Positions 7,872 to 11,724 of a stretch of 64,000 nucleotides of DNA are shown piece by piece (position 1 is the stretch's first letter; each line of letters opens with the position of its first letter). Under the pieces are notes generated by a model. It worked only from the letters and a program-made list of their open reading frames with translations, searched no databases and was not told the origin of the DNA. This stretch comes from Chloroherpetonaceae bacterium. Its GTDB lineage: Bacteria; Bacteroidota; Chlorobiia; Chlorobiales; Chloroherpetonaceae. The stretch is taken from NCBI GenBank assembly GCA_028277445.1, contig JANQGG010000070.1, positions 1 through 64,000 of the forward strand. Reading direction: 5' to 3'. A program made the translations under genes and the position numbers.

Positions 7872-9686
7872 CTAATCTTTTTTAGGCAAATTTAACGAAA
7901 GGCTGAGTTCTCGTAAATGTTTTGGTGAAACCACCGAAGGTGCGCCCATCATCAAATCCTGTGCCTTTTGATTCATTGGGAAGGCAATCACTTCACGAAT
8001 ATTGTGCTGATCGCGATAGATCATCACCAAACGATCCAAACCCGGCGCTATACCTCCGTGAGGCGGCGCGCCATGCCGGAAGGCTTCAATCATATGGCCG
8101 AATTCCTCATCCACCTGCTCTTTGCTGTATCCGGCAATTTCAAAGGCTTTGTACATAATTTCAGGCTTGTGATTACGAATTGCGCCGCTGGAAAGCTCAA
8201 TGCCGTTACACACAATATCGTATTGAAACGCTAAAATGCTTAATGGATCTTTTTCTACCAAGGCATCCATGCCGCCCTGTGGCATAGAGAACGGGTTATG
8301 CGAAAATTCAATTTTCTTTTCGGTTTCATTGAATTCATACATCGGGAAATCAACGATCCAGCAAAACGCCAGTTCGTTATTGTCGAGTTCAAATAAGCTT
8401 GAAAAATAAGTTCGCATGCCACCCATGATCTTGCAGGTTTTTTCCCAAACCCCTGCGCCAAAAAAGACCACGTCGCCATCTTCAAGATTCAGGCGATCCA
8501 TTAAGGCTTTAAGCTCGCCTTCGTTTAAAAACTTCAAGATTGGGCCTTTCGGACCGCCGTTCTTAAACTGGATGTAGGCTAGTCCCGGCGAACCGTGTTT
8601 TTTAGCATGATCTTCTGCTTTGTCATAAAACAAACGTGGTTCATTACCACGGCCTTTTAAAACCAACGCTTTAACGCACTTACCGGGTTTGCAGTTGCTG
8701 GCAAATACTTTAAAGCCGGAATCTTTGAAAAAGTCCGAGAGATCCTGGATTTCCAATGGTATGCGCAAATCGGGCTTATCTGTGCCATACTTATCCATCA
8801 CTTCTTTGTATGGAATCCTTGGGAACGGAAACTCGCGAATCCGCTTGGTTGAAAGGTTATCAGTCAGGTACTTGAAAAGACCTTCAAGCTCTTCAAAAAG
8901 TTCATCCTGTGTAATGAAGGACATTTCCATATCGAGCTGATAAAACTCACCGGGACTGCGGTCGGCGCGGGCATCTTCATCCCTGAAGCATGGCGCAATC
9001 TGGAAGTATTTATCAAAGCCAGCTATCATTAACAACTGCTTAAACTGCTGAGGGGCTTGCGGCAAGGCATAAAACTTACCGGGATGAAGCCGGCTTGGCA
9101 CCAAGAAATCGCGGGCGCCTTCCGGCGAGCTTACCGTGAGGATCGGCGTTTGAATTTCGTGAAATCCGCGTTCTATTAAATACTTACGAATTTCAAAGGT
9201 AAGCTGGCTTCGGAATAAAATATTCTCTTTTAAATGCTCGCGGCGCAAATCCAAAAAGCGATATTTCAAGCGTAATTCTTCCGAGGTTTGCGTTTCATCG
9301 GCAATTGGAAACGGGATGGGCTCCGAAGCATTTTCAATGGTTAAATCATGTGCCACAATTTCAATATCACCGGTAGGAATTGAAGAATTGATCGTTTCAT
9401 CGGATCGTTTGATCACATCGCCAACAATGGTGATCACCGACTCGCTGTGCAAATGTTCGGCGCGTTTAAAAACAGCTTCATTTTCGGGTTGAAGCACACA
9501 CTGCGAGTAGCCGGTATAATCCCGAAGGTCTATAAAGATCAACCCGCCATGATCCCGAACTCGATGCACCCACCCGGAAAGCCGAACGGTTTCACCGATA
9601 TGTTCAGCACGAATTGTACCACACAAGTGCGTTCTAAAGGGGTTTTTATGTTTCAATTCCAATAGTGTTTTTGAGTCTGAATTCAT
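7872..9686 (-). CDS. aspS: Aspartyl-tRNA synthetase
   Basis: The 604-residue enzyme charges tRNA-Asp with aspartate in the cytoplasm. The N-terminal OB-fold anticodon-binding domain is residues 18-115 ([15 protein letters not shown]). Class II motifs follow: motif 2 [19 protein letters not shown] and motif 3 [11 protein letters not shown], plus [12 protein letters not shown] large insertion (about 290-430) is the GAD domain of bacterial-type AspRS, so this is the long bacterial form rather than the archaeal form. Length agrees with the family (580-600). It is a single gene on the minus strand with about 245 noncoding bases upstream of the dnaX end. Confidence 0.97.
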
Positions 9687-9931: not shown

Positions 9932-10528
9932 TCAATACATCAATTCAGCGCCGAATTCACGAATAAGGTATTTAACCACTTCATTGGTTTCGGCCAGTTC
10001 TTCAAACAATTCTTTTGGGCTCTTTTCTCGATGGGCTTCGGCAACATCTTTATCAAAAACCGGTTTTACGACAACTTGTGTCTGAAAAAACTCGCTCAGC
10101 GCCCATGTGAGTTTCGGGGCGTCTTCCTGAAGCGTTTCATACGTGAATGCATTTTTACACAAAATCTGTAAATGGCGATCTTCCAATCCCAAAATAGTGC
10201 AAAATGCCAGGTGCGATCTCAAAACCGATTGATTGCTTTCTTCCAGGTACTCAATAAACTCCTCCCATCGCGCCTGAATGTCTTCAACAGTAATGGTTTT
10301 TGATTCATCATGATCCGGGTGTTTGGGAACCTCGGGGGTTTCTTGTTTTGATTGAGGATGTTGATAGTGGGTGTTGCGAATAAAATCCGAAAAGGGCTCA
10401 CGCCATTTATCCAATCGAAGTACCGGCAGCGTTTCCTGTGCAACAACCGGCAATAATGTCGATGTTTGTGATGACTGTTTCTTTTGCTCGCGTACCGGAC
10501 TAGACTTCTTCCGTTGCTTTACTGCTAT
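9932..10528 (-). CDS. dnaX: DnaX tau-specific C-terminal domain, read in the -1 frame
   Basis: This frame is open from the A10 run that ends the DnaX gamma frame down to the stop at 9932 and adds 198 residues. It begins IAVKQRKKSSPVREQ, a basic linker, and continues to a folded domain (TVEDIQARWEEFIEYLEE to FGAELMY) that resembles the C-terminal replisome-contact region of tau. An isolated ORF starting at a Met-coded 10453 would lack the linker. Joined to the 399-residue upstream part, the product would be 597 residues, the usual tau size. Production must depend on slippage or frameshifting at 10528-10537, or else the frame change is a sequence error in the homopolymer. Confidence 0.75.
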   Translation of the reverse strand: MAVKQRKKSSPVREQKKQSSQTSTLLPVVAQETLPVLRLDKWREPFSDFIRNTHYQHPQSKQETPEVPKHPDHDESKTITVEDIQARWEEFIEYLEESNQSVLRSHLAFCTILGLEDRHLQILCKNAFTYETLQEDAPKLTWALSEFFQTQVVVKPVFDKDVAEAHREKSPKELFEELAETNEVVKYLIREFGAELMY

Positions 10529-11724
10529 TTTTTTTTTAACGCGTCTTTTAACCCTGCAATCTCTTTTTCCAATGCCTCTACACGTAACGGCAGCTGCCCA
10601 AGCTGAGCTGGTTCGGTAAGCTTAAGCAATGCCAGCTCAAAACGAAGGCGGGGTTCGCGAAAATGCTTGATGTCTTTTTCTGCCGAAGTTATAACATCAA
10701 CAAACCCAAGCAATTGCTCAGCAGAAAACTGTTGCACTTCCGATTCATAGCGGGCTTTACTTTCTTCGGTACCTTCAACCAATTTGGCCGAACGCAAATT
10801 AATCACCGTTAAATAATTTCTGAAATGCTCAATCAAACGAGTCAAGAAATCGGAAGGATCGTAGCCTTTTTCAAACACAAACCGGGAAAGCTCTAACATA
10901 GCCTTGGCATCTTTGTTTGTGATGGCCGTGGTGACGTTAAAAAAGAGCTCATCATCGATATCATTCAACAACTCAGCGACGGTTTCATAAGCAATCGTTT
11001 GCTCAGCGTTGCCGGCGCAGAACGAAATCACCTGATCCAAAAGGCTTTGTGCATCGCGCATCGCGCCATCGGCTTTGCGGGCAATTAAGAGCAAGGATTT
11101 ATCATCGATATGGATCGCCTCCTTTTCACAAATGGCTTTGAGCTGCGCCTGGATATCCTGAATGGCAATGCGTTTGAAATTAAACTTCTGACAACGCGAA
11201 GAAATCGTGGGCGGCACTTTATTCATTTCCGTTGTCGCAAAGATAAACACCACATGCTCCGGCGGCTCTTCAAGCGTTTTCAGAAACGCATTAAACGCGG
11301 CATTGGAAAGCATGTGAAATTCATCAATAATATAGACCTTGTATTGTCCTTTTTGAGGCGCGTAACGAACATTTTCACGTAAAGCGCGAATGTCTTCTAC
11401 GCTGTTGTTGGAAGCGGCGTCGAACTCAGATATGTTCAGGCTGGTTCCGGCATCAAAATCCTGGCAACTTTCACACTGGCCGCAAGGTTCGCTTTCCTCG
11501 GTGCGATACTTTGTATCGCTTTGGATTTTTTCACAATTCAGCGCTTTGGCTAAAATTCGGGCAGCCGTTGTTTTTCCTACGCCCCGCGAGCCGGAAAAAA
11601 TATACCCGTGAGCAATGCGCTGAGAGCGAATGGCATTTTTTAATGTGCGCGTTACATGCTCCTGCGCGGCTATGTCTGAAAATTTCTGAGGCCGGTATTT
11701 TCTGGCTATAACAATGTAGGACAT
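10525..11724 (-). CDS. dnaX: DNA polymerase III clamp-loader subunit gamma/tau, gamma frame
   Basis: The zero frame encodes 399 residues ending KDALKKK at a TAG directly after ten A residues. It is the ATPase motor of the clamp loader that places the sliding clamp on DNA. Walker A is GSRGVGKTTAAR near residue 45, a zinc-binding Cys set (CGQCESCQDF) follows, Walker B is VYIIDEFHML and the sensor/arginine-finger block is TTEMNKVPPTISSRCQKFNF. Domain III ends just at the A-run, so the zero frame alone gives a gamma-like protein. The tau extension lies in the -1 frame immediately after. The minus-strand neighbours MFS and aspS are unrelated. Confidence 0.93.
   Translation of the reverse strand: MSYIVIARKYRPQKFSDIAAQEHVTRTLKNAIRSQRIAHGYIFSGSRGVGKTTAARILAKALNCEKIQSDTKYRTEESEPCGQCESCQDFDAGTSLNISEFDAASNNSVEDIRALRENVRYAPQKGQYKVYIIDEFHMLSNAAFNAFLKTLEEPPEHVVFIFATTEMNKVPPTISSRCQKFNFKRIAIQDIQAQLKAICEKEAIHIDDKSLLLIARKADGAMRDAQSLLDQVISFCAGNAEQTIAYETVAELLNDIDDELFFNVTTAITNKDAKAMLELSRFVFEKGYDPSDFLTRLIEHFRNYLTVINLRSAKLVEGTEESKARYESEVQQFSAEQLLGFVDVITSAEKDIKHFREPRLRFELALLKLTEPAQLGQLPLRVEALEKEIAGLKDALKKK
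10528..10537 (-). promoter_or_regulatory. Candidate programmed slippage site (A10) in dnaX
   Basis: The minus strand reads GCG TTA, ten A, then TAG. In the zero frame this is Leu-Lys-Lys-Lys-stop. Adding one A, or slipping back one base, gives an open frame through the tau domain. Runs of nine or more A cause RNA-polymerase slippage in Thermus dnaX, and A-AAA-AAG drives ribosomal -1 frameshifting in E. coli dnaX. No strong downstream hairpin is seen here, so transcriptional slippage looks the more likely of the two. Confidence 0.65.

Follow-up and report, generated by a model that had tools for sequence, protein, structure and literature searches.

A conserved A tract of changing phase in dnaX as a probable slippage site for the gamma and tau subunits

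The dnaX gene is located on the minus strand of the window, by which we mean the whole 64-kb stretch of DNA that was analysed, with its ATG at position 11724. Its zero frame (10525..11724), delineated from the open reading frame and from profile matches, encodes a gamma-like subunit of 399 amino acids comprising the AAA+ ATPase, the lid and domain III. On sequence grounds, the identity of this product as DnaX is beyond doubt: the N-terminal part matches TIGR02397 (dnaX_nterm) in a profile search with an E-value of 1.1e-133, PRK14955 and the Pfam families PF13177, PF22608 and PF12169 all match the gamma part above their cut-offs, and E. coli gamma/tau (PDB 1jr3) matches it with an E-value of 2.6e-75. 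The product ends in LKKK, directly before a TAG stop codon (10525..10527, minus strand) that abuts a run of ten A residues (10528..10537, minus strand; a T10 when viewed on the plus strand), such that the zero-frame codons read TTA AAA AAA AAA TAG. Past the run, the -1 frame continues as ATA GCA GTA AAG CAA CGG (IAVKQR...) and stays open for 198 amino acids up to a stop at 9932-9934, tail and stop together occupying 9932..10528 on the minus strand. The third frame is closed after 8 codons. One extra A joins the gamma part to the -1 tail, for a product of 399 + 198 = 597 amino acids. A sequence-only reading of this DNA had reported the ten A residues followed by TAG, which are present as described, together with the lengths of 198 and 597 residues, which recomputation reproduces. 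Its placement of the stop at the end of domain III is roughly right, the Pfam match to domain III ending at residue 375 and the stop following about 24 residues later. The next gene, aspS (7872..9686, minus strand; named from its ORF translation), lies 245 bases downstream of dnaX and serves as context only.

The -1 frame tail matches positions 435-620 of the tau model NF011515/PRK14954 with an E-value of 1.5e-29, and is the only tail of this type in the genome. Tails from genes in which they are read in the -1 frame align with those from genes in which they are in frame and have invariant residues in common, including the C-terminal end ...FG.E, which for this tail type is conserved as ...FGAEL.Y. 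The window's own gene (L001) and its closest relative (L004, see below) are saturated at synonymous sites (pN 0.44 versus pS 0.87), so the test for selection rests on closer pairs of relatives. In such unsaturated pairs, dN/dS is 0.10-0.30 for the -1 tails and 0.015-0.07 for the gamma part; judged by these ratios, the -1 tails of the relatives are under purifying selection. AlphaFold predicts one confident domain in the tail, at residues ~80-192 (mean pLDDT 81.5 overall). The best PDB match of this model is domain I of DnaA (4tps_D, E-value 0.006), DciA is matched as well, and the tau subunit of the E. coli polymerase complex (5fku_E, E-value 0.094) is matched weakly. The predicted structure is suggestive, short of decisive, of a fold like that of tau domain V, while a PDB search with a profile of the tails found no sequence.

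The genome from which the window derives is a draft of 70 contigs (3.42 Mb, 99% complete). Since csmA, which encodes the chlorosome protein CsmA, is found in this genome and in 14 of 14 sampled relatives from its chlorosome-bearing order, with none in 14 control genomes, gene content identifies these organisms as green sulfur bacteria. The sole genome found from the same family is a single contig of 3.29 Mb, whose dnaX (L004) has A9 at the site. This agrees with the A9 listed for Chloroherpeton thalassium (PMC3711429), presumably the same species. Only two runs of at least nine A residues occur in the window, where shuffles give 22 matches, and A10 or T10 occurs 18 times in the whole 3.42 Mb. 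Several of the other A10 runs also lie inside open frames; A10 as such is not unique to dnaX. One (L077, G000:C57:15686-15695) covers codons 2-5 of a glycogen synthase-like gene (MPKKKLKVLFVAGEVVPFAKTGG), where an mRNA longer by one A would run into TAA just behind the tract (ATG CCA AAA AAA AAA ACT TAA); this is possibly a slip site that lowers expression, or else chance. Two others occur within open frames resembling MutY (L062, G000:C8:9307-9316; EFPGGKKKQGES) and MurB (L071, G000:C36:45213-45222), and slippage at either would shorten part of the product.

What goes beyond chance, as the comparison of relatives indicates, is the retention of an A tract at this exact place in dnaX. A run of A9-A11 occurs at the homologous position, near codon 380-398, in 87 of the 87 dnaX genes of the order with readable sequence there; this count covers the sampled genomes, with some genes left out at contig ends or for lack of a motif match (e.g. 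L108, G060 and G087), and the Chlorobium species with A8 and A7 (PMC3711429) are not among them. Lys is encoded by AAG in 62% of cases in the largest family, and outside the tract the gamma part has A runs of at most 2-7 residues, so the tract is kept and is no by-product of lysine. Several members of that family (L033, L034, L038, L048 and L054) carry a second run, A8, some 40 codons past the start of the tau tail (codon ~422-440). Of the 87 genes, 73 have a -1 tail and 14 an in-frame tail; none has it in +1. Among 56 genes scored from the rest of the phylum, 38 have A9-A11 at the site, with the tail in frame in 24, in -1 in 13 and in +1 in one, and 18 have no such run; that sample was deliberately enriched for short open frames, so these proportions are not population frequencies. 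Among all 125 run-bearing genes of the phylum, then, the tail is in -1 in 86, in the zero frame in 38, and in +1 in one. Fourteen phylum members (L130-L134, L136, L138, L139, L142, L143, L148, L150, L155 and L160) lack even a run of six A residues at the site and have tau in one frame. Such members would have lost the slip site or never had it, and the presence of a run changes about eight times over the tree.

The position of the stop, right at the junction, together with a TTG at codon 25 of the tail, could be taken to mean that a free tau-C protein is made by translating the tail alone, through re-initiation or from a start inside the gene. Nevertheless, the TTG is not accompanied by a Shine-Dalgarno (SD) sequence, the first ATG or GTG of the -1 tails falls anywhere from codon 7 to codon 183, and the tail is fused in frame in the 14 order genes noted above. 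Separate translation was rejected because no start is conserved, and its probability is close to nil.

Mapped on a DnaX tree, the phase of the tail changes ~11 times within the order, at least nine of them by well-supported branches. These counts are approximate, since the tree was built quickly from the first 345 residues, with the run left out, and many of its forks are weakly supported. In several cases a single A separates the phases of relatives: L028 (A9) from L022 and L029 (A10), L030 (A9) from L035 and L042 (A10), and L094 (A11) from L106 (A10). Individual draft genomes could carry errors in such runs, but L028 is from a one-contig genome and the flip pattern recurs. A similar concern applies to the window itself, since it comes from a draft of many contigs and homopolymers are error-prone: the true genome might have A11 with the whole gene in one frame, or a recent indel might have disabled the gene. 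This would have to be reconciled with the 73 of 87 order genes that are equally out of frame, including that of the one-contig closest relative, and with purifying selection on the -1 tails in unsaturated pairs, so that we consider it most improbable. The sequence-only reading held that A11 in the genome would refute a two-product gene. That is too strong, because close relatives with tau in frame, such as L094 (A11) and L035 (A10), keep the run with both other frames shut; an A11 would leave the slip system in place.

Taken together, the identity of the tail as the tau C-terminus, the purifying selection on -1 tails of relatives, and the presence of the slip site throughout the sampled order bear out the proposal that gamma and tau come from one gene. 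The A10 tract very probably lets a single dnaX yield two proteins of different length, and probably does so through transcriptional slippage. RNA polymerase would copy the A10 with a variable number of A residues. Faithful transcripts would end translation at the TAG, to give gamma (399 amino acids), and transcripts with one extra A, or an equivalent phase, would enter the -1 frame and give tau of ~597 amino acids, whose C-terminal domain would link polymerase and clamp loader. Transcripts read in the third frame, with its 8 codons, would yield another gamma-like product. The sequences themselves establish the anatomy of the gene, the conservation of the tract, the closure of the other frames and the purifying selection on -1 tails of relatives; the making of both proteins, the transcriptional nature of the step and this role of tau are what we infer.

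The main competing explanation is that transcripts are faithful and that tau is produced by programmed -1 ribosomal frameshifting on A_AAA_AAA or A_AAA_AAG. The first of these heptamers is in frame just before the TAG in the window's gene. The second, the shift site of E. coli dnaX, is absent there and is in frame in 76 of the 87 order genes. Tails are nearly all in -1 or 0, the phases that -1 shifting can serve, which would explain the rarity of +1, and possible stimulators have been mentioned for Chlorobium phaeobacteroides (PMC5009743). A few single genes fold strongly downstream, L004 among them, with a predicted 60-nt structure downstream of its A9 (-24.2 kcal/mol, z -2.9) that is absent from the window's gene. 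In the latter, the 81 nt downstream fold at -10.2 kcal/mol (z = -0.2), in line with the earlier remark that no strong hairpin follows the run. Across the 125 run-bearing genes, neither downstream structure (z -0.17 versus -0.12 in controls) nor SD-like sequence (12.8% versus 9.8% in controls) is enriched. Moreover, conservation extends to nine or more A residues, about the homopolymer length of programmed slippage sites, rather than to a heptamer of 7 nt.

The frames on either side of the tail frame provide further evidence. Both non-tail frames stop within 9 codons in 118 of the 125 run-bearing genes, as against 15% at random codon boundaries, which were drawn from the same genes with local composition unmatched. 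The early closure extends to the +1 frame (combined p 4e-5 over 40 genera, an indicative value that treats genera as independent), although closure of the third frame at 8 codons is unremarkable in the window's gene alone (p 0.4). Ribosomal frameshifting of the -1 type never enters the +1 frame. It cannot serve L112 (G164), a gene from another family of the phylum with its run at codon ~352, whose tau tail is in +1, the sole such case among the 125; in its sister L162 the run is A11 and tau is in frame. Several points speak for slippage, the mechanism also preferred in the sequence-only reading, without proving it: the conserved run is long, neither side frame stays open, phases are exchanged among relatives, stimulators are not enriched, and L112 has its tail in +1. 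Ribosomal frameshifting by itself we regard as unlikely. Joint action of slippage and ribosomal frameshifting on the tract, in shares that vary by species, appears less likely still, even though the tract fits both and one mechanism is known to take the place of the other in dnaX (PMC3711429).

Genes of this type are not without precedent. Antonov et al. 2013 (PMC3711429) described two-ORF dnaX genes in which tau requires recoding, 17 genes from 12 genera of which nine have A10. They gave A9 for C. thalassium, A8 for C. chlorochromatii and A7 for C. phaeobacteroides, and proposed transcriptional realignment. The window's gene resembles these in lineage, in its poly-A at the junction, and in having gamma in the zero frame and tau in -1. 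The earlier claim that the zero frame gives the short product is therefore confirmed here but is not new (PMC3711429). What differs from that set is the further species, the TAG abutting the A10, and the scope, which here takes in 87 order genes plus other families with in-frame states mixed in. According to Atkins et al. 2016, one base is enough to exchange the roles of the dnaX products (PMC5009743). In Thermus thermophilus, dnaX undergoes transcriptional slippage on A9 (PMC1088944); the likeness extends to a tract of A9-A10, side frames that are soon shut, and gamma and tau from one gene, although the zero-frame product there is tau and here gamma. Citrobacter rodentium tssM, an unrelated gene, has an A11 at which added A's cause ~20-25% frameshifting (PMC4256274), and there, as here, the zero frame gives the short form and added A's the full-length form.

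In E. coli, dnaX makes gamma by a -1 ribosomal frameshift at A_AAA_AAG, assisted by an SD sequence and a hairpin. Both there and here, one gene has two products and the shift falls at Lys codons after domain III. Unlike E. coli dnaX, the window's gene has no SD sequence, no hairpin and no in-frame A_AAA_AAG, and the shift is needed for tau.

While the gene design was already described in 2013, what the present comparison adds is its order-wide conservation with a wandering phase; no description of such a census was found in the literature searched, which lacked most subscription papers. The need for gamma beside tau has long been debated. That every species examined keeps a slip site, even as the faithful product alternates between gamma and tau, argues strongly on comparative grounds for selection on both, and sister species one A apart offer a natural experiment on slippage setting the gamma:tau ratio. 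As a practical matter, ~84% (73/87) of the order's examined dnaX genes will look frameshifted to automatic annotation. A more tentative idea, which we put forward as conceivable though rather less than even in likelihood, is that dnaX in this phylum is phase-neutral: the tract would slip so readily that a change of one base in the run swaps the faithful product with neither product lost, and the phase of tau would drift to and fro. If so, the census of 86, 38 and 1 genes in the -1, 0 and +1 phases would record insertion-biased slippage of the RNA polymerase of the phylum.
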